A stretch of DNA of 40,359 nt from a virus: positions 1-40,359 of the IMG/VR virus record IMGVR_UViG_3300025108_000133. One strand, written 5' to 3'. The notes below the pieces were generated by a model. The model ran no database searches and was not told where the DNA came from. It was given only the letters and a program-made list of their open reading frames with translations. Position numbers and translations under genes: made by a program. Positions 3,801-31,332 of this stretch are shown here, piece by piece (positions within the stretch are counted from its first letter, which is position 1; the number at the start of each line of letters is the position of its first letter).

Positions 3801-4212
3801 TACCAGATATGGCCGCGTTCGCTATCAATATCCACCTATTTGCAGTGTTATCAGTAGCAAAAGCAGAGCTAGATGTGTGCGCCGCAGTAGCTAAATACGT
3901 TCCGCTGTTAAAATCTACTATGTCGCCAACAGCATAAGATCTCCCCGTTGTCCAATCACCCTGGGGAGTAAATCCAGTAACGTTAATCAATGCTAATGCA
4001 CCTGGATCAAAAGCATCCTTGTGTACCGCCTGATTGCCCAGCTTGCCATCATCACGCTGAACCTTGGCAATGTTGGTGTTTAAATCATCTAAGGTTAGCT
4101 TAACCGCGTTAAGTTCCGCGTCTACTTGTGTACCTGGTAACGGATCAGCTGGCGTTGTCGCCTGATAATCCTTAAAATTAAACTGTCTGGTGTAGTCGCG
4201 TGGTTGTGACAT
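865..4212 (-). CDS. Large tail fibre protein (1115 aa)
   Basis: A long modular fibre. Residues 1-75 (MSQPRDYTRQFNFKDY...) look like a virion-attachment domain of T7 gp17-like fibres. Residues about 150-212 form a beta-rich module with F-V-N-G-E-L-L-N. Residues 305-440 carry degenerate ten-residue repeats (N-V-T-T-V-A-G-I-S-S type). Residues 441-482 are an Ala/Ser-rich coiled-coil-like spacer. The module near 580-640 (T-L-N-G-S-L-L-F-N-G-T-D-Y) resembles the first one. The C-terminal third contains L-D-D-Y-E-E-G-T-F-T-P-T-F, a signature seen at the base of many phage fibre tip domains. It would act outside the cell in receptor recognition. Its ATG overlaps the stop of the upstream gene as TAATG, showing translational coupling. 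The fibre role is confident; the receptor is unknown. Confidence 0.88.
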   Translation of the reverse strand: MSQPRDYTRQFNFKDYQATTPADPLPGTQVDAELNAVKLTLDDLNTNIAKVQRDDGKLGNQAVHKDAFDPGALALINVTGFTPQGDWTTGRSYAVGDIVDFNSGTYLATAAHTSSSAFATDNTANRWILIANAAISGTSSAVDKFEGDGTTTVFTLTYTYASTTSIQVFVNGELLNPTDDYTISGNQLTLFTAPGLPTVSGNENVIVWGASVVGQAAADAASASASNASGFADEADNWARKTTGLVESADYSSKAYAIGGTGVDAGSGSAKDWATKTSSTVGNTSEYSAKYWATQGNVPIVATNISDVNTVAGISSNVTTVSGISGNVTTVAGVSAAVTTVAGISSNVTAVAGDAADIGTVAADLGGSDTIGTVAGSITNVNTVASNVSDVSTVSGVSGNVTTVAGISSNVTTVAGISANVTTVAGQTTNLQNVTDNLSAIQNAGTNATNAASSATAAASSQTAAAASQVAAAASASSAANSFDSFDDRYLGVKNSDPTTDNDGDALASGMLYFSSSENIMKVYDGASWIAATSAGNVSLTTYQYSASGGQTTFSGSDANSATLSYTVNNILVTLNGSLLFNGTDYTATNGTSVVLASGAVASDVLQVTAFKSFTTADMVPASTGGTFSGNVTVSGDVKINSGGTHVGSIKNVSSDFVIQSIISDQNIIFKGNDGGSVINALSLDMSENGVANFAAGANFEGDISITAATNAKLTINDNVGEVGSGNLAFQASNSAGSALKPMGFRAEDIRFAVSSSEVLRIASNGDVGYGKSSPGNPGWARNVHIHGSGNGGGLKLTDNTSGSGNNDGLDIASYQGHAYFINRENATMRFHTNDAEKARLDADGHFYVGTSDSQPPTNNDASGICLRSDGKVAASRSNGISGDFNTGADGEVVWFRKAGTETGKIAISGNDFKIFGSVSNIGGIQFGHSKMMPMKSGSLSNGGTDLGSSSYRWKDLYLSGGVYLGGTGSANKLDDYEEGTFTPTFGDGNGTHQAVTGAAGRYTKIGQRVFVEATFVRNNTTGTDGNLRVGSLPFTSSSNSSATFVTGHMWIDNGGPSTGAGDEVGAAYLGGGSTSVLGVKSTTSAQQANIRYFQYSQVTNGRPVSISLVYRTDS
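2893..3300 (-). repeat. Degenerate ten-residue repeats in fibre shaft
   Basis: Residues 305-440 of the large fibre consist of about a dozen ten-residue units of the pattern N-V-T-T-V-A-G-I-S-x. They are interrupted once by a longer variant (around residues 357-380) and visible at DNA level as recurring minus-strand AACGTNACNACNGTNGC-type blocks. They probably form a repetitive trimeric shaft. The long antisense open frame here (2891-3448, plus strand) is a by-product of the repeat composition. Confidence 0.8.
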
Positions 4213-14942: not shown

Positions 14943-15242
14943 ATGGAACTGCTTACACAAAAGCAAGCAGCTGATTTACTTTGCGTGTCGATTCGTACAG
15001 TCGAACGATACAGACACAGCGGATTATTAAAATCTATTCAAATAAATAAACGAACAATAAGAATACCAAAATTAGCAGTGGAGAAACTGCTGGGAGAATT
15101 AACATGGCACAAGAGCCAAGACTTGAAAGATTTGAAAACAACAAATACTACATCATCTACAGAAGCCAAAACCGCAGCCAAAGAGTATCGACGAGGACGA
15201 CGGATTTATCAATCGCAACTGCACGGTTTCAAGGCTGGTTAG
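14943..15242 (+). CDS. Excisionase-like MerR/HTH_17 DNA-binding protein (99 aa)
   Basis: Residues 1-50 (MELLTQKQAADLLCVSIRTV, then R-Y-R-H-S-G-L-L-K and R-T-I-R-I-P-K-L-A-V-E-K-L-L) are a classic HTH_17 / excisionase winged helix: Q-K-Q-A-A-D-L-L-x-V-S-x-R-T-V-x-R. Residues 54-99 overlap the integrase in another frame and look like low-complexity by-product sequence (T-T-N-T-T-S-S-T). By family it would bend attachment DNA and direct excision or regulate integrase. The ATG follows the repressor stop by 2 bases. The long overlap (139 bases) with the integrase gene is unusual. Confidence 0.72.
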   Translation: MELLTQKQAADLLCVSIRTVERYRHSGLLKSIQINKRTIRIPKLAVEKLLGELTWHKSQDLKDLKTTNTTSSTEAKTAAKEYRRGRRIYQSQLHGFKAG

Positions 15243-16162
15243 AAGAAAGTAAAATAAACTTTACGGTTGAGAACGACCCTACTGTTGGTCGCTGTTTAGA
15301 TCTTTGGTTTAATGATTGGATTAAAGATCGAATGATAACTGAGAACCGTTACCATTCGATTATAAATAATTTAAAAAAATATTTTGATAATATGCCAGTT
15401 AGTTCGGTGCAGAGAAAACATTCTAAGAAATACATCGAACTTAGAGAAAACGGTTTGATTGGCCAATGCCCAGCGGCATCAGGAACAATACGAAACGAGT
15501 TGCAACGTCTTAGAGCTTGCTTTCGATTTATGGTTGAACGTGTAGAGCCTAAAGAACAGCGTCTTGACCAAGAGCTCATACCTTATGTCGAGTTGCCGCC
15601 GCCTAGCCCACCAAGGGATCGAGTTTTAGATGATGATGAAGTAAACTTACTTAGAGAAGTTTGTCCTGATCTTATCCTAAACGGGTCGGGTCGCAGACCA
15701 TCGAACCGAGTATCGAGGATCGGTAGGTTTATAATGTTAGCAATGGAGACAGCACAACGTAAAGCAGCAATACTTGATCTCACTTGGGATCGAGTAAACT
15801 TTGAGACGAACCGAATAGAGTTTAACGCAAAAGGACGGCAACAAACAAAAAAGAAACGCCCAACTGTAAGTATGAGCCCTCGATTACGCAAAACGTTGTT
15901 ACGAGCAAAAGAAGAAGCTATCAACGAGTATGTCCTTGATAAGAAGACCGACGTTTATGAGGCTGTTAAAAGTTTTGGCAAAAGTATTGGCATTGACGAT
16001 TTAAACCCTCACGTTTTCCGCCATACCTGGGCAACAAGAGCAGTTATGCGTGGTGTAGATTTAACAAAAGTTGCTGCAATGCTGGGCGATAAAATAAAAA
16101 CTGTTGAGGATAATTACCAACACCTATCGCCGGATTACTTGGACGATGTGCATGAGGAATAG
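15104..16162 (+). CDS. int: Phage tyrosine integrase (352 aa)
   Basis: A tyrosine recombinase. Residues 1-50 resemble an arm-binding domain and 55-150 the core-binding SAM-like domain. Residues about 170-350 are catalytic: R219 (T-A-Q-R-K-A-A), lysine in the K-G-R-Q-Q-T-K-K-K beta hairpin, H303-x-x-R306 in H-V-F-R-H-T-W-A-T-R, and nucleophile Y338 in E-D-N-Y-Q-H-L-S. The usual third His (L-G-H) is L-G-D here. It would recombine attP, probably in the gap just downstream, with a host attB. The ATG at 15104 has GGGAG 7 bases upstream, which supports the start even though it lies inside the excisionase frame. Confidence 0.9.
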   Translation: MAQEPRLERFENNKYYIIYRSQNRSQRVSTRTTDLSIATARFQGWLEESKINFTVENDPTVGRCLDLWFNDWIKDRMITENRYHSIINNLKKYFDNMPVSSVQRKHSKKYIELRENGLIGQCPAASGTIRNELQRLRACFRFMVERVEPKEQRLDQELIPYVELPPPSPPRDRVLDDDEVNLLREVCPDLILNGSGRRPSNRVSRIGRFIMLAMETAQRKAAILDLTWDRVNFETNRIEFNAKGRQQTKKKRPTVSMSPRLRKTLLRAKEEAINEYVLDKKTDVYEAVKSFGKSIGIDDLNPHVFRHTWATRAVMRGVDLTKVAAMLGDKIKTVEDNYQHLSPDYLDDVHEE

Positions 16163-16498: not shown

Positions 16499-19400
16499 TC
16501 ATTTAAACATACTATTTCCAAACGGGCTCGATGATCCGCCACCCGATCCACCTCTACGATATTCTACGCCATGCGTCATTTTAATAAACTCTCGAACGAC
16601 ATAATGTTTAACCGATGGAGAAGATAAGGCCATATCAGCTGCACCTAATCCGTAGCCCAGAGTTGTGCCAACACCTGGCAATGACGTTAAAAATCCGGCG
16701 ATAAATGGAACGGCTATATCATATGTGCCTCGAGCAGCCTGATATTCTTTTGAAACAGTATTCGGGCTATTATCGATGCCAAGACCAAATATCCGCTGCA
16801 ATGCTTTTAGGTAATACGAACCAGTAGCACCAACCAAAACGTTAGAAAAATCTGATTGATATTTCAAACTGTATAGACTGTTGATAAACGGATCTGCACG
16901 ACCAGTAAAACCAGACCGTGATAAACCTAACGTCGCAAGGTATTTGAATGGCGCTACTCGACCTTCTTCTTCCTTTTCTTCTTCCCACTTGTCGCGGTTA
17001 AAAATAAACTCTCTAGCAGCTGAAACTAATGTGTGACCGACGTATAAAGAAAACAACGGTAAGAAAGATTGTCTAGCTAATCGCAATCCTCCTCTAGCTG
17101 CACCTCTAGTTTCGATACCTCGAACACCACGCTTAATAGCCATTTCTAATACGTTACGTTGAAACGCTGCAATGAATGATTGAATACCAAATACAATTCG
17201 ACCTATTGGCGCTTCTGCCCACTTCGGCCTATCAACAATTTTTGGATCTTGTATCGATTGATCGACGAATCGATTTGTAGCAACTGACAGCACTGATCCC
17301 ATATCGGTTAGAGATCCGTCAGCGTTCATTATCTGATCTATTTCGTAAAAGCCTTTTCGGGTTTTTGTTAAATTGCTTGCATACTCAGCAAAAGTTTCCA
17401 TTTGCTCTGGTCGCACACCCAAATCTTGTAGAGCTAGTCGTGATTCTTCTTTCATTCCGGCGTCTGTCGTTTCTCTAAATTGTTTGGCTTGCTCTGAAAT
17501 AAACTGAATACCTACTCGCATCGAGGCTCGACGTTGTGCAATCGTTACGTTTGTAAGCCCTGTTCTTAAAAAGAAATTTGCCAACTGCATTGCGCTTTTA
17601 CTATCTTCGGCTTGCATACCGCCTAACCGATTAGACATAACTTCGCCTGTTTGTGGTAGATCGATTACGCCTAGTATGTTTGCCAACTGGGAATAATACC
17701 TTTTTCTTTCAACTGCATTTTTTCCGCGCATCGATGCTCCAAGACCATCGAAAGCTAAGAACAACGCTTCTAGACCCTTGATGCTGCTACCAGCTTGCAC
17801 ACCAACTGTAAGAGGTTCTGCAATCGATGATATGACAGCACGGGGTAGCAACGACATTGTTCCGTAAGTGTTGATTCTATTGATAGCATGAGCAAGCATA
17901 TTGTCCTGTCCCCCATGCCGACCAGTAACCATATTTACGATTGTTCTTACTTCCTGTGCTTCATGCGGTTTCATTCCAGCGCCTACCGCTTCCTCGAGCA
18001 AGTAATCTGCAAAGTCTCGAGGGTTGCCGTCCACATCTTTTCTTTTGCCCTCTGGAACTAAATCTCGACCAAACCTTTTATTGTACTCTGTTGATCGAAC
18101 CGCAGCTGGTATGTACTGCATGATTGCGTCAGTAGAGTTAAGATAGAAGTCATTCATATATTTATCGGCTTCACCTGGCAATTTACGTTTGCTTGAAAAT
18201 TTACCTTGCGAACCATTAGTGGATGGGTCAGCCCCTTCTCGAGCTTGTATTCGATGCAGCCAATTATCTGCTGCCGCAACTGCGAATGGTCGTCTTAAAT
18301 AATCGTGCAATCTTTTATGGGTTGCTTCAATTTTTGCTTTGTCTTGATCGATCTCTCTTTGCAAATCAGCTGTAGGTTCTCCCTTTGCTTCTGCTTTTTT
18401 AAGAGTTTTTTCCAAGTCTAATAATTTTTTAACAGTCGGGCGTATTTGATTTGCCATCTCTGTGAAGTCTTGATCGACGTAGCTGCGTAAACCTTTACTT
18501 CGTGCAAGCGTAACAAGTTTGTCTGCCTGTTCGATGTTACCATTTTCGTATTCGCCATACTCATTATCGAATATGACTTTTTCGTATAAAGGTATTGCGC
18601 CCTTGTCTCCGCCTAGCTCACCTTTAAACTGCGATGGGTTTTCCATAGCAAGTGGCACATCGAGCATACGAGGCATATACCCTACATCTTGAATGTAGTT
18701 CACATCTTGGCCGCTTTTAACCATGTAATCATATACTGGGTTGAGCAATTCGCGCCTTAGTTTACCAGCAAGCTTTATAACTTTAGGTGAAGCGTTAGCT
18801 GTGGTTTCAGCCTCGCCCGTCAGTAATAAGCGTAGCGATTTTAGTTCGCTCTCGCTCATAGTATCCATGTTAAATTCTTTGTTAAGTCGATCAAATGTTG
18901 CGTAAAACCTACGAGAGTTTATTCTTGTAGCTTCTTCAAACGTACCACCTTGATCGGTAACTCTGTTTTGTCTTGAGCCTGGATCTGTGGCAACACTGCT
19001 AATAATTCGCTCCATAATTTTTTTGACGCGAGGATTTCCTTTAACAACTTCACCTTCTGCATTTTTTTTAGCAGTGTATCGATCGGCAATGTTAAATAAT
19101 ATCTGACGCTTCGTGTTTATAAAGTTGCCGCCATATGTATCCTTTATTTCGTTATACTTGCGCTCAATGAACGTATCACCAGTAAATTTCTTAGGCCGTT
19201 GCCTCAGTTGGGCTGCATTGTTTCTTGCTATGCGAAATGCTTTTTTCTGGTCGCTTATAATTGCTTGCGCTACTCGTTTGGGCGCAGACGCCAGACTACC
19301 GCGTTCCTCATATTGCACTTCTCCCCAGAACGTTGCTTCTGCATCAATAAAATCAGATCCGCCAGGTGCGTCTGCCGCCGTACCTTCTGCAATGCTTTCG

Positions 19401-22400
19401 GTTCGTAGTGCTTCCATTAGCTGATCCATAGCTAACATTATATTGTGTCGCTCATGGTCTTTAGGGAATGTCATGGCTAGACGAATATCTGCACCCTTTA
19501 CTTGGTCGAGCGCAATTTGGTATGCGGCATCGCCCTTTGTAATAAACTCATTGTTACCGCCGGATGCCTCAACGCTTTGCGCTATGTAAGCTTCAAAAGC
19601 TCGAGCAAACATTTCCGTTGGTCGTTTATAATAGTTTTTCCTGTTAGGCTGTTGCATATCGCCAAATTCAGAAGATTGTTCTTTAAACTTCGTAGGTGTG
19701 ATTTGGGTTCGGCCACTGCCCTCTTGCAGTTTAAGCAGCTGTTCTCTTTTCTTTTCCAAAGTTTTATTTGGCTTGCCCGTTTTAAGTTGCCTTGCTTCGC
19801 TTTTAGCAATGTCTTGCTCAAGCTGCATAATCTTCAATGACACTTCAGCTTTATCGAGAAACAACGCATTAATTAAATTACCGAAAGCTTCTTGGACATT
19901 ACGAGGTGTTTGACTTAGCCAAGGACGTTCACCAGAATTTGATGTGCGCCTTACTAAACCAGTAATCCCTTTTATATCTTTTGTTGGATCGCCAGTACCG
20001 TATTTCTCTAAGATGTGGTAATCAAGCGCATGCGCCCATTCATGTGCAAAGCTATTAGATCTTTGCGGCATAATAATTTGTTTCGCACCTGGACTATATG
20101 CCCCAAGAAATCGAGTAGCACGATCTGGCAAGGATAAAGAAAGGCTACCATTTAAACCCATAAGTGTATTAGGCATTGAAAGGCTGTGCGTCATCCACTG
20201 TAGGTTATGGTAAGCATCGAGCAGCTGGTTTACTTGCGTGTAGCCAGCACCTTCTTTTGGTGCTTGTATGTCTTTCAGCCCAAATTTATCCATTAAGACT
20301 TTGCGTAAAATTTTAAATTTTTCTTCGGTCGATTTGTTTTCGATCGCATCGACATTTACATCGCTATCTGAAAACGCATCGCGGTATAGAGATTGTCGTA
20401 ATGTTTGGCTTCGCGTATCAAATATACTGCCTGAGTTTATTGTGCCAATATCATCAGTGTTCGGGGTAGCAGAGTTTACTTCGTCAAAGTCGAGGTCTGC
20501 TTCTTTACTGCGTCGTCTAGTGTTTTTGCTGCTTTTCGCCACGTTTTGCTTTTGTACTTGTTGGCTACTCGCTTCATCGCGTTCGACATTACTTTCAAAG
20601 AGTCCTGATTGTTGTCCTTTTCCTTCATTGCGCTTGGCCTCCGTTCGCTTTTTGCCAGCCTCGATCACATCATCAGGTGTTGTTGTGTCTTCAATAAGAC
20701 CGCCAGTTTCCTTTTGTAATGCTTCTTCAACATAAAAGTCGAGGAAATCTTTCATAGCTTTTGTGCTATTAGCTCTGGTTAAGTCAGTATTATAAAACGC
20801 TCGAACAAGAGCTTCTAATGCTGGATCTGGTGCGGAAAGCATATCCGTCTGATTAAAATAATCTTGCACCTTAGTACCATCACGGCGCAAACGACTAACC
20901 AAGTTAGCCATTTCTGCTAGTCTGGGTGTAATATCCCATTGTGCTTCGGTTCGACCATCAGCCACTTGTTTCTTTAACTGAGCAAACTTAGGGGCAGCTG
21001 CCATAAACGCATTAGAAATAGCTTTTATGTTTTCGTCGCTGCTTTCGAGCATTGTTGCCAACGTGTCGGTATTATCAAAAGCAGAACCTAGTATGGCGTT
21101 CTTTACTCTTGCTACACCCTCTTGACTAATAACGCCGTTTGCATCAACAAACGCACCTTGCTCTGTAGGTGAGAGTATTTTCTTTGCATATTCTTGAACA
21201 AATTGTCTGTTTTGCGCTGCATCAATATCAAAGTCACCACGATACAACTCTATAATCTTGCTATCCGTTAATCGTTTTGCATCACGACCAGCACGTTCTG
21301 TCATAGACATTGTCGCTTGCGCTTCAGTGTTTGATAGATCCGCAAACTCTTTTAACTCAGCGACATTCATGTCGTCTGTTAGCTGCCGCACAAACACTGG
21401 TTGCGAAAACCCTTCGGTGTTAATCCCAGCACTTTCTAACGACGCTCGATACTTTGACAAACTTTCTGGCTGGTTGGCATAGACCTCTTGCAGTGTAAGC
21501 ACTCGCCCATTACCAGACATAATCGTTCCATCTCGGGCAATAATAGGCGCACCAGAACCAGAAGTAGGATCATCGAGCAATCGATCTGGATTAAACATTG
21601 TGCCAGCCCGTTGCTTGCTTAGTGCTTCGCTTTCTTTGCGTGATCGATCACGCGGCTGCAGTTCGCCTTGCGCTTGCTTTAAATCTGCAAGTTCAACAAC
21701 TTTACCTTTGACGTTGTAATTCTTTTGACCATCTGGGGTTTGTACGCTTTTAACCACATCATCAGTGCTAGTACCAACTTCGTCAGCTTCTTGGGGATTG
21801 GGTAGCTCTGGTGCTTTTTGTCTTTCTAAACGTTGATTTTCAAGACCTATAGATTCTTGCTCTTTTTGTATTTCTTTAAGTCTTTTCTTTATTTCAGTTT
21901 GTCTTGGATTTATACGCGCAACTATTTCTTTCTTACTTAACCCTTGATCTGACAATCTCATTGTCTCATTCATAAGTTCTGTGCTTTCAGCATCTAAACG
22001 TTTTTTTTCTGCATCTAATTCGTCATAACGTTTGTTAATGGTTGCAAGCTGCTCGTTTATATTATTATTATTTACAGCACTAGCTTTTGGCTGTACTGGC
22101 GCTTGCTTCTGAACATCAACAGGCTGGGCTTGTTGCGGTATAACTGGCTGTTTTTCTGTTGTAGTACCTGGCAATTGGCTTTGCAGCGCATTGCGTAAAA
22201 CAGTTTTTTCGTCGTCTGATAATCCCGACAACTCTGGCGCGTCTTCGTTGTCTAGTGCATCTATTAGCTTCTGCACAAGTTCCGGCGATTGTGATTGCGC
22301 GTCAACGGGTGCTGTTGGTTGCTCGATGTTAGGTTGAGAAGCCGCAGACGGAGGAACAGGTTGCGCCGGAGCGTCATCCTGTTTAACCGTCTGCGTAGTT

Positions 22401-23707
22401 ACCGTCGGATCAGGGAGTGCGTCATCGACGGGTGGAGCAACGGGTTGTTCTATATCTGTTTGTGGATCATCTGGTTTATTATTTCTTCTTGGGTTTGCTA
22501 TTATACCTTCTGCAATAGTAGAGCCACCGCCAGCCAATGCTTCTGTAGTAGTTTCTTTAAAGCTAAACGGATCGCCTACGGCTCTTGTTGCAGCAGCCTC
22601 CCCAGCACCTTCGGAAGTCGCTTGGGCTACTGTTTGTCGTGTAAGGCTAGTTTTAATTATGTTTTGAGCAACTAAACCCTGACCAGCTAAATCTGCCGCA
22701 GCTATAACTAAACCTCGAGTTAAACCGCGTTCGTTTGCTTCGTCCATAAGTTGAGGGTTTTTAAACATTTTAGAGGCAGCATCAGGCGCAGAAAGATCGA
22801 TGCCATTTTCTTTTAAAAAAGAGTCTATTTCTGCCGCGTACTCTCTGCTAAAGCCACCAAGAGACATCACCGCTGCACCAGCTGTAGGGTTTCCAGTTAC
22901 AAGACTTGTCGCAACACCAGCTGCTATCTGCGGTACGTTTTCCGCAAGTGTCTCGCCCATAAACGCCATAAAGCCTATTGGATCGTCAGTAACAGTTGAT
23001 AGCCACCCTCTAAAGGTATCAGGAGCATCTGCTAGTAACTCTCCGTATGCAGCTGCTGTTGGAGATTGAGCAAAACCCTCGGCTAGTTCAAATAATTCCC
23101 CCACCCTTTTCGTATTAGCAGTTAGTCTTTTAATATATGGCGCTGGGTTCTGCATCGCGTTTTGTCGTGTTTGTAGACGCTTATCAGTTACTTGCTGGTA
23201 GTTTACATTTGCTTGCGGTAAAACTCCATATTGACCCATCATTGCGTCTACTTGGGCAGGGTTACTTACTGTTGCTGCCCTTGAAGTAAAAGCTTGCGGC
23301 GGTACGCCCGATCTTATTATTTCATTATATCTAATAGCATCTTCTGTTTTTTGTGTATCCGCCAGAGCCCTTGCATCAGCTGTTGCCAGCATCGAGGGTA
23401 ACGCTGCATATGTCGTAACAGCACCTCTTTTTACAGCCCTGCCAACCCCCGTACCATCTGGATTATTTGGATCAACCAACGGAGAGCTAGACGAAATGGG
23501 AGGGTTCGCGCTAACCACGTTCCCAGGAGGCGGCAACGCTTCCGTTGATTGATTGTTTATAGATGCCGGACGAAAATCAAATTCCTCAGAGGAGTTTGAA
23601 TTAGTCTCAGCATTATTGTTTAAAATAGCAGACGGTCTAAAATCAACAGTTTGATCTTCTTCATCTTCACCTTGTTCGGTGGCTATTGAAGCTGGTCTAA
23701 AGTCCAC
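16499..23707 (-). CDS. Giant ejection/polyvalent protein with DdrB/ParB-like and zincin domains (2402 aa)
   Basis: Last and largest late gene, 11 bases after the 487-residue gene. Three D-F-R-P-(A/S)-(S/A)-I motifs lie at residues 2-8, 22-28 and 44-50. A hydrophobic Ala/Gly region lies at about 245-400, then a Pro/Gln-rich linker (410-545) and a coiled coil (550-630). About 690-815 contains G-S-G-A-P-I-I-A-R-D-G-T-I-M-S-G-N-G-R and L-S-N-T-E-A-Q-A, as in DdrB-like ParB domains. A-H-E-W-A-H-A-L-D (1221-1229) with E-M-F-A-R-A-F-E-A-Y (1365-1374) is a zincin metallopeptidase site. Helical repeats and hydrophobic segments continue to a Gly/Ser tail. Size and position match T7 gp16-like ejected proteins; the domains match polyvalent proteins injected with DNA. 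Enzyme activities are predicted, not shown. Confidence 0.8.
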   Translation of the reverse strand: MDFRPASIATEQGEDEEDQTVDFRPSAILNNNAETNSNSSEEFDFRPASINNQSTEALPPPGNVVSANPPISSSSPLVDPNNPDGTGVGRAVKRGAVTTYAALPSMLATADARALADTQKTEDAIRYNEIIRSGVPPQAFTSRAATVSNPAQVDAMMGQYGVLPQANVNYQQVTDKRLQTRQNAMQNPAPYIKRLTANTKRVGELFELAEGFAQSPTAAAYGELLADAPDTFRGWLSTVTDDPIGFMAFMGETLAENVPQIAAGVATSLVTGNPTAGAAVMSLGGFSREYAAEIDSFLKENGIDLSAPDAASKMFKNPQLMDEANERGLTRGLVIAAADLAGQGLVAQNIIKTSLTRQTVAQATSEGAGEAAATRAVGDPFSFKETTTEALAGGGSTIAEGIIANPRRNNKPDDPQTDIEQPVAPPVDDALPDPTVTTQTVKQDDAPAQPVPPSAASQPNIEQPTAPVDAQSQSPELVQKLIDALDNEDAPELSGLSDDEKTVLRNALQSQLPGTTTEKQPVIPQQAQPVDVQKQAPVQPKASAVNNNNINEQLATINKRYDELDAEKKRLDAESTELMNETMRLSDQGLSKKEIVARINPRQTEIKKRLKEIQKEQESIGLENQRLERQKAPELPNPQEADEVGTSTDDVVKSVQTPDGQKNYNVKGKVVELADLKQAQGELQPRDRSRKESEALSKQRAGTMFNPDRLLDDPTSGSGAPIIARDGTIMSGNGRVLTLQEVYANQPESLSKYRASLESAGINTEGFSQPVFVRQLTDDMNVAELKEFADLSNTEAQATMSMTERAGRDAKRLTDSKIIELYRGDFDIDAAQNRQFVQEYAKKILSPTEQGAFVDANGVISQEGVARVKNAILGSAFDNTDTLATMLESSDENIKAISNAFMAAAPKFAQLKKQVADGRTEAQWDITPRLAEMANLVSRLRRDGTKVQDYFNQTDMLSAPDPALEALVRAFYNTDLTRANSTKAMKDFLDFYVEEALQKETGGLIEDTTTPDDVIEAGKKRTEAKRNEGKGQQSGLFESNVERDEASSQQVQKQNVAKSSKNTRRRSKEADLDFDEVNSATPNTDDIGTINSGSIFDTRSQTLRQSLYRDAFSDSDVNVDAIENKSTEEKFKILRKVLMDKFGLKDIQAPKEGAGYTQVNQLLDAYHNLQWMTHSLSMPNTLMGLNGSLSLSLPDRATRFLGAYSPGAKQIIMPQRSNSFAHEWAHALDYHILEKYGTGDPTKDIKGITGLVRRTSNSGERPWLSQTPRNVQEAFGNLINALFLDKAEVSLKIMQLEQDIAKSEARQLKTGKPNKTLEKKREQLLKLQEGSGRTQITPTKFKEQSSEFGDMQQPNRKNYYKRPTEMFARAFEAYIAQSVEASGGNNEFITKGDAAYQIALDQVKGADIRLAMTFPKDHERHNIMLAMDQLMEALRTESIAEGTAADAPGGSDFIDAEATFWGEVQYEERGSLASAPKRVAQAIISDQKKAFRIARNNAAQLRQRPKKFTGDTFIERKYNEIKDTYGGNFINTKRQILFNIADRYTAKKNAEGEVVKGNPRVKKIMERIISSVATDPGSRQNRVTDQGGTFEEATRINSRRFYATFDRLNKEFNMDTMSESELKSLRLLLTGEAETTANASPKVIKLAGKLRRELLNPVYDYMVKSGQDVNYIQDVGYMPRMLDVPLAMENPSQFKGELGGDKGAIPLYEKVIFDNEYGEYENGNIEQADKLVTLARSKGLRSYVDQDFTEMANQIRPTVKKLLDLEKTLKKAEAKGEPTADLQREIDQDKAKIEATHKRLHDYLRRPFAVAAADNWLHRIQAREGADPSTNGSQGKFSSKRKLPGEADKYMNDFYLNSTDAIMQYIPAAVRSTEYNKRFGRDLVPEGKRKDVDGNPRDFADYLLEEAVGAGMKPHEAQEVRTIVNMVTGRHGGQDNMLAHAINRINTYGTMSLLPRAVISSIAEPLTVGVQAGSSIKGLEALFLAFDGLGASMRGKNAVERKRYYSQLANILGVIDLPQTGEVMSNRLGGMQAEDSKSAMQLANFFLRTGLTNVTIAQRRASMRVGIQFISEQAKQFRETTDAGMKEESRLALQDLGVRPEQMETFAEYASNLTKTRKGFYEIDQIMNADGSLTDMGSVLSVATNRFVDQSIQDPKIVDRPKWAEAPIGRIVFGIQSFIAAFQRNVLEMAIKRGVRGIETRGAARGGLRLARQSFLPLFSLYVGHTLVSAAREFIFNRDKWEEEKEEEGRVAPFKYLATLGLSRSGFTGRADPFINSLYSLKYQSDFSNVLVGATGSYYLKALQRIFGLGIDNSPNTVSKEYQAARGTYDIAVPFIAGFLTSLPGVGTTLGYGLGAADMALSSPSVKHYVVREFIKMTHGVEYRRGGSGGGSSSPFGNSMFK

Positions 23708-23718
23708 ATTTACACCTT

Positions 23719-25182
23719 TTAGTTTTGATAGTTTACAAGGGCTTCGGCTTGCTCGTTACTGTATCCCATTTCTATTGCTGTAGTTTTTAACTTTGCTGGA
23801 TTATTTCTAGTTGCGTTGTAGAAATATTCTGGAAATAAAAACTTGCCGCCGCCAAAACGCCCTGTGGCAACAGTTATGTTACTGCTTTGTAAAATGGGAA
23901 GGACGCTTTCCGCGTATGCTTGGTCATACGTTTTCCCATCAGCAATATCTAAATTTAGGTTGTTATAAGCATATTCCCTAACCTTAACGAGCGCAGAACC
24001 AGGTAGTTCACCTAACGCAGTATAGTTCTTAATATCTTTTTCAAAACTACTGTTAAATTTAGTTAAGTTTTCACGGTTTTCTTTAGGAGTTGCAGCATTA
24101 AAATTATGCCCGTCAGGTATAACAAGCTTACCGTTCCTCAATACTGGATTTAACTTCTCAATATTTTCCGGTGCTATTTTAACTGTTGTAGGAGAACCAC
24201 CTGGATTTTCGATCTCTACTTCGATCATGCTCTCAGTGTTGCCAAAGCTCATGGTATACTTGCCATCTGCATTAGGCTTTATATCTAACTTCTTAGCAAG
24301 ACCAGGGGAAACAATCATTTCGTCATTGATAGTGATATACTGTTTATAAACGTTTTCGGCTTTTAAACGTTCTTGGTTTTGTTTCAGTTCTTCTCGTTTA
24401 AAAGTGTCTTCTATTCCAGCAATTTTTTCAGCACTTGCTGTGGTAATATCCGCAACGGCTGATTTCCATTCTTTTATAGCCTTTTGTTTAATGTTCTCAA
24501 TTTCTATGTTGCCAGCAACTGTAGCCTTAGTGTCACGATCCCCCTGTCCACCTTCGGCAAACCGCAGCTTATCTTCGTATCTCTTACCAGCTAAGTCATC
24601 TTCAGACTCTAAGTTAGCAATGTCATAAAGGTTATCGAGTTGCATTTCTGCAAAACCTGGGTTTTGATATTGGCCTCCAGTTGGATCTAATAATAACGCA
24701 CCTCGTCCAGCTTCAGCATCGTTACCAGTAAGTATTTGTCTTTCAGCAAACCTTTGCGCCCTTCCGCTTCCAACAGTGTCCAAAGCACTTGCTCTTTGGT
24801 CAGGGTTTCCGCCTTGCAGAATTGCTCTAACCATTGCCCCCGATACCTCTGGGTTAATAGTAATTGGCTGCCCATTTTGAGTTGTTTTTGGTAAACCTAG
24901 TGGTTCAATAAAAGCTTGTGCAATAGTTGAATCACTTGCAAGAAGATTAAGGGCATCACTCATAGCCACAAGATCAGCGGTTTCTTGATCAAATTTACCA
25001 GCTTGTGAATTATCTCTAGCCGCCGCCGCTTTCAATTGTGCCTGTTCAAAAGGTAGCAAGGTATTCACTCGATTGGTCCGTGAAACCTGATAATCCGTCT
25101 GCGGATCACCAATCAAAGCTTTAGTCAAATTACTAAAGCCTTGCGCTAAAAAAGGATCCATTTGGTACGGATTTCTTGCCAT
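23719..25182 (-). CDS. Putative internal virion / ejection protein (487 aa)
   Basis: A 487-residue protein starting MARNPYQMDPFLAQGFSN, with Ala/Gln-rich helices at the N-terminus and a charged coiled coil (about 220-285: A-E-K-I-A-G-I-E-D-T-F-K-R-E-E-L-K-Q-N-Q-E-R). Next comes a beta-rich section (M-S-F-G-N-T-E-S-M-I-E-V-E-I), and a C-terminal helical domain ends in Y-S-N-E-Q-A-E-A-L-V-N-Y. It sits between a gp14-like protein and the giant protein, the position of T7 gp15 (internal virion protein C). An ejectosome role is inferred from order and composition; sequence similarity to gp15 is not obvious. Confidence 0.6.
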   Translation of the reverse strand: MARNPYQMDPFLAQGFSNLTKALIGDPQTDYQVSRTNRVNTLLPFEQAQLKAAAARDNSQAGKFDQETADLVAMSDALNLLASDSTIAQAFIEPLGLPKTTQNGQPITINPEVSGAMVRAILQGGNPDQRASALDTVGSGRAQRFAERQILTGNDAEAGRGALLLDPTGGQYQNPGFAEMQLDNLYDIANLESEDDLAGKRYEDKLRFAEGGQGDRDTKATVAGNIEIENIKQKAIKEWKSAVADITTASAEKIAGIEDTFKREELKQNQERLKAENVYKQYITINDEMIVSPGLAKKLDIKPNADGKYTMSFGNTESMIEVEIENPGGSPTTVKIAPENIEKLNPVLRNGKLVIPDGHNFNAATPKENRENLTKFNSSFEKDIKNYTALGELPGSALVKVREYAYNNLNLDIADGKTYDQAYAESVLPILQSSNITVATGRFGGGKFLFPEYFYNATRNNPAKLKTTAIEMGYSNEQAEALVNYQN

Positions 25183-25184
25183 TT

Positions 25185-25814
25185 CTAATTTCCTTTATCT
25201 GGATCGTACAAACTATACCCAAGACCTACTTGACCAGCGCCTTGAAGAACTTGCGCCATTGGTGAGTTTGCTAATGTTGCAGCTGAACTCATTCCCGTGT
25301 CTAAAACATTTGTGTTGCCGCGCATGAAGTTACCCGTAAGCATCCCAGATGCTGCCGAATCTGCAAGTTTAGGCTGGATGGTCTGTGTTAAATATCTGTT
25401 TGTAGCGTCAAGCTTTGCAATGTTCTTTGCGTCTGCTTGTGCTTTTAGTATGGCAGCAGCTTCGCTTGCCGCCTTTTGATCCATAAATACTTTTGGTGCT
25501 GATCTAGCACTTTCGCTATTTGGTGTGCTTCTTTGGCTAATTGCTGCTTGTAGTATTTTAGAAAGCTCATTGCCAGCTGCTTCAATACCAGCCTGTCCAA
25601 CGGATGAAGTTGCGGAATTGGTTGCGTTTTGTATTGCAGCTGCTTGCTGATCTTCTAGACCTCTGTTTCTGTCTCGAGTTTGCTGCATCCGCAACGCTTG
25701 CAAATCGTTTGCTTTGTTTGCGGCTCGGTTTTGAAGCCCTACTCCTATCGCTTGAGCAACAATACTTGGGCCAATACTAGAAGTTAAAGCTGCACCTACT
25801 GTCGGATCACACAT
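25185..25814 (-). CDS. gp14-like internal virion protein (209 aa)
   Basis: A 209-residue protein starting M-C-D-P-T-V-G-A-A-L-T. A short hydrophobic N-terminal segment (S-S-I-G-P-S-I-V-A-Q-A-I-G-V-G-L) is followed by long Ala/Gln/Asn-rich helices, and the C-terminus contains Q-V-L-Q-G-A-G-Q-V-G-L-G-Y-S. The M-C-(D/E)-P start with a membrane-active N-terminus is typical of T7 gp14-like internal virion protein B, which forms the outer-membrane part of the ejection channel. Its ATG overlaps the upstream stop (TAATG). Confidence 0.65.
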   Translation of the reverse strand: MCDPTVGAALTSSIGPSIVAQAIGVGLQNRAANKANDLQALRMQQTRDRNRGLEDQQAAAIQNATNSATSSVGQAGIEAAGNELSKILQAAISQRSTPNSESARSAPKVFMDQKAASEAAAILKAQADAKNIAKLDATNRYLTQTIQPKLADSAASGMLTGNFMRGNTNVLDTGMSSAATLANSPMAQVLQGAGQVGLGYSLYDPDKGN

Positions 25815-27421
25815 TAATTTACTACCTTCACGCTGCCGCCGGAAATAGGATCGAATATTCCGGCGATTGTGGATGGCGCAGTGTTCGCGCCTTTTTCATT
25901 AACTGATTGAGATACCCGTCGAGGGCCACCAGAAGCCACGGCTGTTGGATCAACATTATACGATGGATCATATGATCGTTTTACAAAGTCAGTAAAGAAA
26001 TCAACGACTTCTTGCTCTTTTGGTGTTTTGTATGGCTGTACTGCGCTTGGGATGTCGAACGCTTCAATTTCTTCAGCAGTCCCAAAACCGCGTAATTGAT
26101 TTTCAATTGATGATTTGCCGCTATCAACAAAGTTTCGGTTAGCCGTAACGTATTGATTTACGATGTTATCAAGCCTATTACCTTCACCACTCTCCGCACC
26201 AGACAGCAATCCTAAATCATCATCAACATCAGATTGTGCAAGCATCCCAGCAGATTTGTAGGTATCGTATACTCCTCTTAAAGCGTCATCGTAAGCAGTT
26301 GAAAATGCTTCACTAAGACCACCTTCACGATAGCTCGTTCCTAATCCACCAAAGTAATCGTCATTTGCAAATCCAAAAGCACTACTTAAACGCCCTAATG
26401 CAGCATCGAGCGCAGCTTGCCTTGCTTTTTCAGCTTCAGCAGCAGCAAGTTCTTCATCTGTCGGGCCAGTAATTTCATTACCACCACCGCCACCACCACT
26501 GCCACCGCCACCGTCAAATGGTGGTTCTTCTCCTGGAATTACAACACCGTCTGAACCACCCCCAGGCGTGTACTCTCCGTCAGGGTTAATAGTATTTATT
26601 GGCCCTACTGGGCCTGGTATAACAACACTATTATTGCCGTTGCCGCCTTGCGTGGAGTAGGTTACAGTTCCAGCACTCCCGTCGTTGCCAGAAACATTAA
26701 CAAAACTGCTAGAGTCTGTGCCGCCACTATTTAAAAATTCGGCAAGACCTAACGTATTTGCAATATTTACTGGATTATCTGTTGGCTGGTAGAGGCTTCC
26801 ATTTGCATTACGCGCCATCGCTGGTGCTTTACTTGCGTCTAACCCACCTAGTAATTCTCTAGTGCCGTCAGCGTTTACTCGTATCATTGGTGGGTTTCCA
26901 GCATCAAACGGCGCAGCTGGTCGTACTTTACCACCAATATTCATAACGCCAGTACCGCCTAAAGTTTTCGCAAGCTCTTGATTTGCGCTATTATCTACTA
27001 ACTGACCACCAACATACTCTTTGCCGTCATCTGGGGTTACTAAGTTTACAAGTGTTTGTAGAATGTTGTTTTCTTTTGCCGCCGCAGCGTCTGCTTCTCT
27101 CTGGGCTTCGTAAGCTGCTGCTGCTTGTGCTGCTTCAGCTGCTTCCCTTTGCCTTTTTTTACGTCTTCTTCTTTGCGCGGAAGTTTCGTTTTTCCTACTT
27201 GAACTTGGCCCAACATTAGCGCCAGCACCACTTTGACTGCTTGGGGGGTAAGCTGGAATACCAGCAAAGCTAGGTATTTCTGCACCACCAGCACGTTTAA
27301 GCATTTGGCGTTCGGCTTCGTTTATATACGCCAGCATATGCGGTTCACCAGCAATTGTGGCATTTCGAGGGGCATTTCCACCCGACGTTATTTCTTTCCA
27401 TGTATTATCCCACCAACCCAT
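25814..27421 (-). CDS. Large structural protein, probable virion/ejection component (535 aa)
   Basis: A 535-residue protein of mixed low-complexity and folded regions. It starts M-G-W-W-D-N-T-W-K-E-I, has a very basic cluster at 84-92 (R-R-R-R-K-K-R-Q-R) followed by an Ala/Glu coiled coil, and a Gly/Asn/Ser-rich middle (including a polyglycine run near 305-315). A helical C-terminal third follows (A-L-G-R-L-S-S-A-F-G-F-A-N-D-D-Y ... S-A-V-Q-P-Y-K-T-P). It sits between two M-C-type ejection-protein genes, so an internal or neck protein is likely. No enzymatic motif is seen. Confidence 0.6.
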   Translation of the reverse strand: MGWWDNTWKEITSGGNAPRNATIAGEPHMLAYINEAERQMLKRAGGAEIPSFAGIPAYPPSSQSGAGANVGPSSSRKNETSAQRRRRKKRQREAAEAAQAAAAYEAQREADAAAAKENNILQTLVNLVTPDDGKEYVGGQLVDNSANQELAKTLGGTGVMNIGGKVRPAAPFDAGNPPMIRVNADGTRELLGGLDASKAPAMARNANGSLYQPTDNPVNIANTLGLAEFLNSGGTDSSSFVNVSGNDGSAGTVTYSTQGGNGNNSVVIPGPVGPINTINPDGEYTPGGGSDGVVIPGEEPPFDGGGGSGGGGGGNEITGPTDEELAAAEAEKARQAALDAALGRLSSAFGFANDDYFGGLGTSYREGGLSEAFSTAYDDALRGVYDTYKSAGMLAQSDVDDDLGLLSGAESGEGNRLDNIVNQYVTANRNFVDSGKSSIENQLRGFGTAEEIEAFDIPSAVQPYKTPKEQEVVDFFTDFVKRSYDPSYNVDPTAVASGGPRRVSQSVNEKGANTAPSTIAGIFDPISGGSVKVVN

Positions 27422-27425
27422 TATA

Positions 27426-28037
27426 TTATCCTCTTATAATTGATGAGCTATTAGTTGGTGCAAACAGTTGCGCCATCTCATATCTGTTTTTATTTCGCGC
27501 CTCGAGTTGCGCTTGCGTTGCTAAACCTTCGGTAGCATTTGCAAAAATATTACTTATTGGATTGTATTCTGGCACTTGGGTATTAGCCATTATTTGATTT
27601 TGCGCTTGTGCGGCAATAAGTGAAGGATCTGCCAAACTTGCGTTTTGACCTAATAAATTACTTTTAATGGTCGCAAGATTTGAACGTGTAGTATCAGCAA
27701 TAGATTGACCTTTTCTTGCAGCTTGTAACTCCGCATCATTAAATTTTTTAAGCAATTCGTTTTCTCGCTCAATGCGTTCACTACCTACTAATTGACCACT
27801 TCGAGCAAGCGCAATCCGCAAATCTTTCATTGCCTTTTCATACTGATCTTCAATTTGCGGTTGCGCGTATGACATATAATCAGCTGCACGGTCTGCGTAG
27901 AACTGGTCATTATAACCACTAAACGCTGCATCAATGTTGTCTTTCCCCTGCGTAATACGCCCCTGCCTAGCTTCTTCTTCTGCAAGCTGGCGTTGGTATT
28001 CTTCTTCCATTGCACTGCTGCCGCCGCCCAAACACAT
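27426..28037 (-). CDS. Internal virion-like protein (203 aa)
   Basis: A 203-residue protein starting M-C-L-G-G-G-S-S-A-M, then strongly charged helices (E-E-E-Y-Q-R-Q-L-A-E-E-E-A-R-Q-G-R-I) and Y-A-Q-P-Q-I-E-D-Q-Y-E-K-A-M-K-D-L-R, with Ala/Asn-rich helices to the end. The M-C-x-G-G-(G/S) start and coiled-coil character recur in podovirus internal or neck proteins of marine phages. It follows the GNAT-fold gene directly, with the stop adjacent to the ATG. Role inferred from position. Confidence 0.6.
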   Translation of the reverse strand: MCLGGGSSAMEEEYQRQLAEEEARQGRITQGKDNIDAAFSGYNDQFYADRAADYMSYAQPQIEDQYEKAMKDLRIALARSGQLVGSERIERENELLKKFNDAELQAARKGQSIADTTRSNLATIKSNLLGQNASLADPSLIAAQAQNQIMANTQVPEYNPISNIFANATEGLATQAQLEARNKNRYEMAQLFAPTNSSSIIRG

Positions 28038-28553
28038 TTATATCACCTCACCCTTTCCGCGCCATCGAACATTTGTGTCCGATAATCGAACGTAACTAAA
28101 AACTTTAAAATCTTCGCCATTTTTGCCATATTTTTTGAGCGTACATTCTTCTTTCAAACCTAAAAATTTTAACCACCTATGCACTTCGTCATACCCATCA
28201 ATACTGTAAGCTTCGACCCTATGAGCTCTAGCGTTGTTTAATGCTGGTATTATACCGCGAATTATTGCTTTTGTCAGGAAAAGGCCGATACTTTTAAATT
28301 TGTCAGTCGCAAACATCCCAAGTGTCCACACACCTGGGCGCACGGGAATATAACTTATTATTGCTATTGGGTTGTTAAGCTCTTTTTCTACACAAAATAC
28401 AGTTTGAAAATTAGCTAAACTGTCTGCAATGTCAGCCGCTAAATTTTTTTTATCTCTCGTAAATCGCAATGCGTCAATTTCTTCATAATCTCTTTGCCTC
28501 ATGTTTGAGGCTACATGAAAAACATCTTGTGGTTCGGCCTCTCTTAGTATCAT
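28038..28553 (-). CDS. GNAT-fold protein, T7 gp13-like (171 aa)
   Basis: A 171-residue protein with a GNAT-like order: N-terminal I-L-R-E-A-E-P-Q-D-V, a strand-rich core (P-I-A-I-I-S-Y-I-P-V-R-P-G-V-W-T-L-G-M-F-A-T-D-K-F), a helix with R-G-I-I-P-A, and a final A-Y-S-I-D-G-Y-D-E-V-H-R-W-L-K-F-L-G-L. This matches the T7 gp13 / DUF2833 family, an acetyltransferase-like fold encoded among internal virion genes and thought to aid assembly. The acetyl-CoA pyrophosphate loop (R/Q-x-x-G-x-G/A) is not clear, so catalysis is doubtful. It overlaps the upstream gene by 4 bases. Confidence 0.7.
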   Translation of the reverse strand: MILREAEPQDVFHVASNMRQRDYEEIDALRFTRDKKNLAADIADSLANFQTVFCVEKELNNPIAIISYIPVRPGVWTLGMFATDKFKSIGLFLTKAIIRGIIPALNNARAHRVEAYSIDGYDEVHRWLKFLGLKEECTLKKYGKNGEDFKVFSYVRLSDTNVRWRGKGEVI

Positions 28554-30616
28554 CCGCTTTCCCCACTTGTATAGTGAATGGCAATATTACCTAGTTTTGC
28601 TGCACCTGGCTTTGCACAAGTCAGTCTAGGTGCTATGTGAGTGCTGTAACCATTAATAGCCGCCCTACCCAATCCAAAAGTCGTTTTATTAACAGTCGCT
28701 ACTTCCTCAAGAGCAGTAATGTCTTGCGGATCAGTAGCGACACTGACGGTCCAAACATTTTCGCAAGTCACATCAATACTATTGTAATCTTTAAAGGTTG
28801 CCGGACTGCCGCTATCCAAAAACGGCATTTGTACAACAACTTCAGAACTATCGTAAATATTACCGTCTTCACCACCTAATGAGTAAAGTTTATTGCCGCT
28901 TCTGCATAGTGTTTGTCTGCCGTCGTATGCCCACCGATCAACAACAAAACCTGGCTCATATATTGACCACGCAGATACCTTCGATGATGGAAAATAACTA
29001 AAAACATACATCGTTGATCCGATTGCCAGTATATACCGACCATCGCGCTGTTCGAGGGTTGCTTTTGACTTTTCAGCTAACGCCCTATTGTCTTGGATTG
29101 ATTTAACAATAAGCTCGTCAATTGGATTCCCAATATCCCCGACGAAAGCAGCGTTTGAAGAGTCTCGAGAACGTAAACTTCTTAAACCAGATAAAGACAG
29201 GTAAAACACATCGTTTTCGCCAAACTCAACTACACTATCAGGTGCTATAGTTCCTGTGTTTTGAAGAACTTGTATTTGCTGATTTAATGACGGGCTTGGA
29301 TCGACAAACCATATTTGTATTGCTTCTTGCGCTAGTACCGCCAAATTATCAAAGTAAGTAGCCATTGCCTTTAGATCTTCTGATCCACGCGAATGGTTAG
29401 CTAAGTTGATAAATCCAGCACTAAGAGAAGTGTCGTTCCACTCTGTTGGGTCATCGATTGCAGAAAAATGCAGCAAACTATCTGACAATGCATACATTTT
29501 TGTTTTTACTGGCATTACAAACTTGCCCGGGCTGTAAGCGTTTATTGTTGCTGCATCTGCGCCGCCATCTAAGAAATTTTGAGTTGTCGGATCAAAAGCT
29601 GTTGTTACATTGCCAGTTGTTGTAACAGCTACGGTTTTATTGTTGTGGGAAGATGTGCTTTCTTTTGCAATAATATTAACAAAGGCATTAACCGCTGTGG
29701 CCTCGTATTCTGGCGCAGAAGCAAAACTATTAATAGCAGCTGCAACTTGGGTTGCAGTGTAGCTGTGTGACGTTTCCCAAACGACTTGTGACCCTATTAA
29801 GTTTATGCCGTCAACAGTAATGGCTGTGACTGCATTATCAACGCCACCAGACATATGATTTATGTTACCAACCGTAAATGCACCAGTGACTTCCAGTGTT
29901 ACTTGGAAGTTGTTAAAAGAAATACCAACAGAAGGTGCTGTTATTGTGACAACATCACTTGTTGCACTGGCTGTAAAATTACTCGATCCAGTAGTTATGG
30001 CAGCTGCAATATTAGATGCCGTTAAACTGTTTGACCCGTTATGATTTACTGCACTGTCAATAATGTCTACGTTATTTATGCGTAAAAAACGTATTTCATC
30101 GCCTGGATTTGACGTACCACCAGTTATTTGTATTGATGCAGTAGCAGCTGTACCGCCAACACTCCCAGCTGTTATTTGAAAAGTGTTTCTTGCCCTGCCG
30201 TCAAACCAATCTGTAATTCTAGTGCCGTCGTAGTAGTGAAAAATTCTACCATCAGCAAATTGCGCTGCGACATACAATTTACCGTTATAAAACTCTACTG
30301 AATGTACGTTTGTAAGCGCATCACCGCTAGGATGCTGTAGTTGCACATAACTTAAATTAGTCGGGGTATTAGCTGGAAACGTTACGGCTGACGGCGCAGC
30401 TGATCCAAACGTGTAGATCTGACCAGCACCAGCAGCCAAGCCAATTGTGTTCGAGGGTAAATCTACTAGCTCAACAAACGCTGGACGTTTTTCTATTTCA
30501 CCGCCGCGAGTGATGTGTGCGTTTTTAAGCTCAATTAGCGTACCAGGTGGGGCTGTGACGTTCATACGTCTGCGGTCTAACCCACCTCTAAAATCCTCGA
30601 CCAGAACGTAAGGCAT
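28550..30616 (-). CDS. P22 gp10-like tail/stabilisation protein with tandem insert (688 aa)
   Basis: Residues 1-140 (Y-V-L-V-E-D-F-R-G-G-L-D-R-R-R, P-G-T-L-I-E-L-K-N-A-H-I-T-R-G-G-E-I-E-K-R) and the C-terminal part from about 360 (W-F-V-D-P-S, G-L-R-S-L-R-S-R-D-S) resemble head-tail stabilisation proteins that plug the portal (P22 gp10 type). Between them, about 146-258 and 259-355 are two related beta-rich modules, each with T-A-(S/T)-x-(I/V)-A-A-A-I followed by strands and ending (S/D)-G-G-(V/A)-D. The modules look inserted and could decorate the tail. It overlaps the adaptor gene by one base. Confidence 0.72.
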   Translation of the reverse strand: MPYVLVEDFRGGLDRRRMNVTAPPGTLIELKNAHITRGGEIEKRPAFVELVDLPSNTIGLAAGAGQIYTFGSAAPSAVTFPANTPTNLSYVQLQHPSGDALTNVHSVEFYNGKLYVAAQFADGRIFHYYDGTRITDWFDGRARNTFQITAGSVGGTAATASIQITGGTSNPGDEIRFLRINNVDIIDSAVNHNGSNSLTASNIAAAITTGSSNFTASATSDVVTITAPSVGISFNNFQVTLEVTGAFTVGNINHMSGGVDNAVTAITVDGINLIGSQVVWETSHSYTATQVAAAINSFASAPEYEATAVNAFVNIIAKESTSSHNNKTVAVTTTGNVTTAFDPTTQNFLDGGADAATINAYSPGKFVMPVKTKMYALSDSLLHFSAIDDPTEWNDTSLSAGFINLANHSRGSEDLKAMATYFDNLAVLAQEAIQIWFVDPSPSLNQQIQVLQNTGTIAPDSVVEFGENDVFYLSLSGLRSLRSRDSSNAAFVGDIGNPIDELIVKSIQDNRALAEKSKATLEQRDGRYILAIGSTMYVFSYFPSSKVSAWSIYEPGFVVDRWAYDGRQTLCRSGNKLYSLGGEDGNIYDSSEVVVQMPFLDSGSPATFKDYNSIDVTCENVWTVSVATDPQDITALEEVATVNKTTFGLGRAAINGYSTHIAPRLTCAKPGAAKLGNIAIHYTSGESG

Positions 30617-31332
30617 TAGCTACCACCCGTGGTCGCAATCAAGGGTGGCCCTTTTGGTTTGTACATCCCTTCTGGTTCACCACCACCAATTACAAAAGTC
30701 TCTGTTTTACTCATACGCGCTTTTAGTCGAGCGTAATGTGCTTGTGCAGCTGCTAGTTTGTTTTGCGCGTCACCTTGTTTCTGCCGTGATAATATTTCAG
30801 CAGCAGAATAAAGAATTATAAGTTGATCGTCTAAATCAGCTGTGTCTGCTTCAGCAACAAATGGTGTGAGATTGCGAATACCGTATATTCTAATGCTATC
30901 CGTGCCAGTTGTGGCATTTGAATTGTTTGCTGGTATCGGCCAAAACTCTATTTGATTGTTTTCGTAAGTATCAAACCGCCTTATTGGTGAAGATCTTATA
31001 CCTCGATCACTGTCATGCTGGTTGTATTCTTGCGCTCCAACACCGTAATGAAGCTTAGTCCAATAATCACCATGCTTTGTTTCTATACGCTCTATGCGCT
31101 CAAATACTAATCCATCAGGTACATCATAATATCGCTGACCAGCATTTATTGTTATGTCACGGGTAATACGCAAAAACGGCCAGCTATAGTCTTCCCATAG
31201 CCGCCGTTGTGTGCGCTGCAACATATTAATAAATACATCTCGCGTTGCTTTACCCAAATTAGGCTGTAGCGAGTGACCAACTTCTGCTCGTAAATCGGTT
31301 ACAAGTTGACCTAATGATGTACCTCTAGCCAT
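30616..31332 (-). CDS. Head-tail adaptor protein (238 aa)
   Basis: A 238-residue protein: an N-terminal helical region (L-G-Q-L-V-T-D-L-R-A-E-V-G-H-S), then R-T-Q-R-R-L-W-E-D-Y-S-W-P-F-L, a beta section with Q-R-Y-Y-D-V-P-D-G-L and I-E-F-W-P-I-P, and helical C-terminus A-E-I-L-S-R-Q-K-Q-G-D-A. The L-W-x-D-Y-x-W-P-F-L motif is common in podovirus adaptor (P22 gp4 / tail-tubular A-like) proteins that dock on the portal. Position between capsid and gp10-like genes agrees. Confidence 0.7.
   Translation of the reverse strand: MARGTSLGQLVTDLRAEVGHSLQPNLGKATRDVFINMLQRTQRRLWEDYSWPFLRITRDITINAGQRYYDVPDGLVFERIERIETKHGDYWTKLHYGVGAQEYNQHDSDRGIRSSPIRRFDTYENNQIEFWPIPANNSNATTGTDSIRIYGIRNLTPFVAEADTADLDDQLIILYSAAEILSRQKQGDAQNKLAAAQAHYARLKARMSKTETFVIGGGEPEGMYKPKGPPLIATTGGS

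Follow-up and report, generated by a model that had tools for sequence, protein, structure and literature searches.

The DNA analysed here (the window) was an IMG/VR virus record of 40,359 bases with no host genome attached, and it contained a giant open reading frame on the minus strand (16499..23707, stop included) encoding a protein of 2402 aa. The frame was intact, with 2402 codons and 0 internal stops, and started at a GTG codon with a Shine-Dalgarno-like sequence (AAAGGTG) directly upstream. As originally predicted from the sequence, the giant gene was the last of the late unit, which ran from the large terminase (PF03237) through a gene at the portal's place, the major head protein (phrog_9953), an adaptor and smaller virion-type genes to the giant gene. 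The adaptor was of the SU10 type (gp11-like connector; 30616..31332, minus strand; PF24175, E=4.4e-15). Four genes immediately upstream of the giant gene (23719..28037, minus strand; 487, 209, 535 and 203 aa) occupied the position of T7 genes 14-15 in an order kept by relatives; none had a Pfam match, and the gp14/15-type roles suggested for them are read from position only. A tyrosine integrase (15104..16162, plus strand; PF00589, E=1.1e-16) was convergent with the giant gene, and HTH repressors were found close to it on the strand opposite the giant gene. Together the integrase and repressors suggest a temperate phage, in keeping with the lifestyle first proposed. Two further genes were observed in the window. 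A 171-aa gene (28038-28553) stood where the phage Mae-Yong1326-1 has an N-acetyltransferase, and Pfam at E 0.1 found nothing in it, while a 1115-aa protein at the left end (865-4212), which contains numerous TVAGISSNVTTVA-type repeats and matches CBM_5_12, is probably a tail fibre.

All parts of the giant protein described below are encoded on the minus strand. A conserved N-terminal domain (aa 180-430; 22418..23170) was kept in 42 relatives, including several without a ddrB-ParB domain. By eye it was tempting to equate this domain with the first membrane region of T7 gp16, and the comparison failed by hhalign (P=0.05). It was followed by a Pro/Gln-rich variable linker (aa 431-600; 21908..22417), of which aa 451-600 contained 0 invariant columns even among close relatives. 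Beyond the linker, Pfam and structure matches identified at least two functionally unrelated domains within this one phage protein, and the label "polyvalent" given to it at the outset was appropriate.

The first of these was a DdrB-type module (aa 661-1040; 20588..21727), consisting of a ParB fold (aa 661-799) and a helical extension like that of P1 DdrB. The ddrB-ParB family (PF18763) matched aa 661-776 with E=1.4e-25 and 90.2 bits, against a curated cut-off of 27.6. The original prediction had placed a ParB-like segment at about residues 690-815 and had proposed structure prediction as a check; the fold was borne out, while its Pfam boundaries lay slightly upstream. When aa 600-1480 were modelled from an alignment of 41 sequences (pLDDT 83), the model contained both the ParB and the zincin fold that had been expected, and ParB CTPase structures matched it with Z of 8.2-8.6 and rmsd of 2.7-2.8 over 93 residues. 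The motif GNGR (aa 732-735; 21503..21514), which includes Arg735 of the ParB/Srx pocket, was invariant in 41 of 41 sequences, and the role of this arginine in the pocket has been described (PMC5512222). Both the profile score and the pocket arginine thus identify a DdrB-type ParB domain, and on sequence and model we predict a nuclease/NTPase-type activity for it.

The second was a zincin metallopeptidase-like domain of the CLCA_X/LPD1 type (aa 1090-1455; 19343..20440), which matched zincin structures with Z of 6-9. The H-E-W-A-H site was found exactly where it had been predicted, at aa 1222-1226, within the sequence HEWAHALD (aa 1222-1229; 20021..20044), which supplies two predicted histidine ligands, the general-base glutamate and a conserved aspartate. 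The E-x-F-A-R-x-F-E motif proposed to carry the third ligand was present as E-M-F-A-R-A-F-E (aa 1365-1372), and together with Y1359 it forms the predicted catalytic tyrosine and third-ligand helix (Y1359 and E1365-x-x-A-R-x-x-E1372; 19592..19633). Nine positions were invariant across 61 aligned proteins (H1222, E1223, H1226, D1229, Y1359, E1365, A1368, R1369 and E1372). The invariance of HEW is biased, as NSFAHEW was one of the two peptides used to retrieve the relatives; the tyrosine, glutamate, arginine and glutamate at 1359, 1365, 1369 and 1372 played no part in the retrieval. On average a shuffled copy of the giant protein contained 0.008 HExxH motifs, and in 5000 shuffles ExFAR never fell 60-200 aa downstream of HExxH. 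Other ORFs from the loci of the relatives (0.93 million residues) contained 64 HExxH motifs and 0 pairs of HExxH with ExFAR.

The predicted structure of this region had the zincin order of elements, namely helix, strands, HExxH helix and glutamate helix, with an N-terminal helix and a small sheet, and pLDDT was > 90 both at the HExxH residues and along the helix that carries E1365. Zincins headed the list of matching structures, including the lethal factor catalytic domain (Z 9.3), a Bacteroides metallopeptidase (Z 7.3), PPEP-1 (Z 6.6) and thermolysin (Z 6.2). Y1359, six residues ahead of E1365, is reminiscent of the catalytic tyrosine of the PPEP/lethal-factor type. The proposal that E1365 would act as the third zinc ligand is well supported by conservation. 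For CLCA_X, Lenart et al. 2013 (PMC3650047) proposed an aspartate as the extra zinc ligand; in the present family the invariant Tyr-x5-Glu favours E1365 instead. Phage MPTases in general have a glutamate on the second helix (Iyer et al. 2017, PMC5512222).

Pfam also matched LPD1 within the zincin (aa 1354-1437; 19397..19648; PF18796, E=3.9e-16) with 59.3 bits against a curated cut-off of 27, and E1365 sits near the start of this match. Iyer et al. (PMC5512222) file LPD1 among domains of unclear function, not as part of a zincin. We searched 398 Pseudomonadota genomes for LPD1 without HExxH. LPD1 was present in 31 of these genomes, and 27 of 29 newly fetched LPD1 loci had an in-frame HExxH about 73-116 aa ahead of a motif of the E-x-x-A-R-x-x-E type, a spacing that reached 132 aa in four prophage loci. 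The frames at the remaining two loci were short and truncated (145 and 77 aa), so that every intact LPD1 frame examined in this sample had an upstream HExxH. The NCBIfam model CLCA_X (NF041907) spans the HExxH and LPD1 stretches alike; the giant protein scored 44.2 bits against its curated cut-off of 260, making it a relative and not a member of that family. Because the upstream HExxH accompanied all intact LPD1 frames and the CLCA_X model covers both stretches, LPD1 is best read, from these sequences, as the second (C-terminal) half of a CLCA_X-type zincin and not as a separate domain. Four loci (L120, L122, L125, L126) encoded LPD1 proteins of 2.3-2.8 thousand aa in which another HExxH follows the first at a distance of about 240-285 aa, perhaps marking a second zincin.

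The front enzyme varied among relatives. Among 45 relatives whose N-terminal half was intact, ddrB-ParB was found in 31 and ART-PolyVal in 1, and the rest had no known enzyme domain by Pfam; the zincin and the C-terminal module persisted whatever the front enzyme. When the presence of ddrB was mapped onto the gp16-C tree, 8 changes were needed and 7 were forced by supported branches. The ParB module thus came or went at least seven times on this tree, while the zincin and gp16-like parts stayed. PHROGs searches of nine cargo slots gave matches in a single protein (L065:3780-8066), where RusA-like resolvase and DNA-polymerase-like matches take the place of ddrB-ParB. In four other loci (L009, L040, L061, L080) about 480-530 aa lay between the N-terminal domain and the zincin; neither Pfam nor PHROGs gave a convincing match there, and these stretches are candidate cargo. 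In one relative a frame change (L006:16010-16020) broke the homologous giant gene, with a stop near codon 2264, which may be an assembly error or a real inactivation.

Two predicted disordered linkers flanked the zincin. The first, between the ParB module and the zincin (aa 1031-1085; 20453..20617), had pLDDT < 50 (model residues 432-486) and is a candidate cleavage region; the second (aa 1455-1480; 19268..19345) was also seen in the structure model. The zincin could be an injected weapon that cuts host defence or envelope proteins instead of processing its own chain, as might be suggested by its fold, which is near those of host-targeting zincins such as the lethal factor catalytic domains, and by solo CLCA_X/LPD1 proteins of about 260-300 aa in Pseudomonadota, which have no fused cargo to free. 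We regard this as unlikely, given that one would expect a weapon to vary as the neighbouring enzyme does, while the zincin is constant and is flanked by flexible linkers. Because the zincin is constant and the ParB module exchangeable, the pattern of conservation favours the zincin as part of the delivery chassis over a second weapon. A role as a recognition fold for packaging or assembly, in which the zincin would cut little or nothing during infection, appears quite improbable. Its precedent is the virion RNA polymerase of N4, whose MPTase region is required for encapsidation and which stays uncut (PMC5512222), so that self-cleavage is not general among such proteins; in the giant protein, however, the catalytic positions, including the predicted tyrosine and glutamate, were all invariant (61 of 61 proteins), which argues for catalysis.

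The remainder of the protein formed an all-helical module (aa 1480-2402; 16502..19270), modelled with AF2 from 58 sequences (pLDDT 87, pTM 0.85). Foldseek searches of the PDB with the two multi-domain models gave no match at E < 0.001, and sequence searches against the PDB returned noise only. A second-look structural aligner then matched the module to T7 gp16 (7eyb_I, Z 6.2, 245 residues; 9jyy_I, Z 6.0, 290 residues) and to the E1004 core (9vvp_W, Z 5.5, 278 residues), although Z values of 5.5-6.2 are within the chance range of helical proteins. These alignments had rmsd of 5.4-5.9 over 245-290 residues, whereas most other re-aligned PDB entries covered about 50-100 residues. Against viral structure models, 54 matches were observed at E <= 0.001, several of them internal virion protein D or core proteins from Bordetella, Ralstonia, Pseudomonas, Vibrio, Burkholderia and Providencia phages, with the internal virion protein D models matching at about 1e-8 to 1e-5. 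The "structural protein" of Pseudomonas phage KPP25, also among these viral matches, has this module in common with the giant protein and matched it nowhere else. Comparison with six T7 gp16 sequences by hhalign gave P=4e-4 over 323 columns with a probability of 34%, while control modules gave P >= 0.019; the signal was confined to the middle of the module. The sequence match to gp16 could not be carried on into the C-terminal membrane region (hhalign P=0.15).

These results bear on whether the C-terminal part is merely a large helical virion protein and no gp16 homologue, in which case gene position would be the sole link to T7 gp16. The low Z values, the modest hhalign probability and the blank Foldseek search fit such a reading, but the longest compact alignments in the PDB list were those to gp16 structures and the internal virion protein D models matched as well, and we consider it very unlikely. 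The structures, viral models and hhalign result, each modest singly, jointly support a gp16-C-like module, as judged from models and sequence. The match to gp16, formerly drawn from position, thereby gains structural support at the C-terminus. It does not extend to the transglycosylase, as Pfam found no SLT match in the giant protein and T7 gp16 has one; gp16 homologues of the P22 type likewise have no transglycosylase (PMC8954989).

With moderate confidence, we propose that the giant protein is a T7 gp16-type ejection protein turned cargo carrier, whose zincin would release or trim the cargo. Its domain order is a ParB cargo slot, then the CLCA_X/LPD1-type zincin, then a C-terminal part of about 920 residues that would act as the gp16-C-like DNA-translocating or inner-membrane part. 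The protein would be packed in the head core and would exit through the tail before or with the DNA, its gp16-like part lodging at the inner membrane. The ParB cargo would then enter the cytoplasm and may target incoming or host DNA or nucleotides. Most likely the zincin would cut the carrier, either in the head or on entry, freeing the cargo. Such self-processing is our leading inference, which we hold to be somewhat more probable than its alternatives combined; it draws on the model and on analogy, through the flanking linkers, the constancy of the zincin, and P1 DdrB, which is reported to be proteolytically processed (PMC5512222) and is located in the P1 head (PMC9024508). More tentatively, and with less than even confidence, the ejectosome may be a general effector-delivery device in which a fixed gp16-like chassis, widespread among podoviruses, would use its built-in zincin to detach exchangeable cargo (ParB, ART or other domains) in the cytoplasm.

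The giant protein joins two literatures, on polyvalent effector proteins and on podovirus DNA ejection, in one polypeptide, and the role of injected polyvalent proteins becomes a question that can be split into testable parts. If LPD1 does supply the missing half of a protease site, as suggested here, many phage and bacterial proteins could be better annotated. New anti-defence enzymes may be sought in the relatives' unannotated cargo slots.

Several features of the giant protein have counterparts in known systems. The combination of a ParB-like and a zincin region in the main ejection protein of a temperate podovirus had been considered perhaps little studied, a novelty that was overstated, since P1 DdrB (995 aa) already pairs DdrB-ParB (ELQPRDR...GNGR) with a downstream zincin (HELGH at 872) in the same order (PMC5512222). 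The two proteins shared 26% identity over aa 682-1039 by BLASTP; P1 is a myovirus, and BLASTP found no similarity of P1 DdrB to the gp16-C-like part. As in the polyvalent proteins of Iyer et al. 2017 (PMC5512222), several unrelated domains are joined in one late phage protein, and the aspartate three residues after HExxH is that of their widespread phage type of MPTase. The HExxHxxxD motif is also shared with CLCA_X (PMC3650047; NF041907), a zincin of phages and plasmids. T7 gp16 is likewise the product of the last ejection gene and has a C-terminal helical fold, but its N-terminus is a transglycosylase, where the giant protein has about 1050 residues of linker, ParB and zincin ahead of the gp16-C-like part.

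The Microcystis phage Mae-Yong1326-1 has the same gene order, and its protein UUJ74515 resembles the giant protein in the zincin and in the C-terminal module (31% over aa 1100-2363). UUJ74515 is without ddrB-ParB and is annotated as a peptidoglycan transglycosylase, yet Pfam finds no such domain in it. The published description of this phage (OP028995, L007) is of a Microcystis cyanophage whose flexible tail measures 340 nm (PMC9503304). In its genome, by contrast, the late module is of the podovirus type, the GC content is 71.8% and many of the best hits lie in Alphaproteobacteria; there may have been a mix-up of host or microscopy. Some temperate podoviruses were already known to close their late unit with a giant polyvalent or antirestriction protein, as BPP-1 does with Bbp10 and JC1 with gp69 (PMC9144972). 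Bbp10 ends its late unit like the giant gene and has LPD22 and PBECR1 ahead of the motif pair HESGH (797) and EQFARGFEA (863); it has no ddrB-ParB match, its cargo domains differ, and the zincin-family profile of the giant protein misses it, leaving the motif pair as the sole link. JC1 gp69, from a Bcep22-like phage, is a giant DarB-like/polyvalent protein with other cargo domains that closes a podovirus late unit and was virion-associated by MS (PMC9144972). Against this background of ParB-zincin pairing in P1 DdrB and giant polyvalent proteins in JC1 and BPP-1, what is newer is the gp16-type chassis, with its slot for exchangeable cargo, and the reassignment of LPD1.
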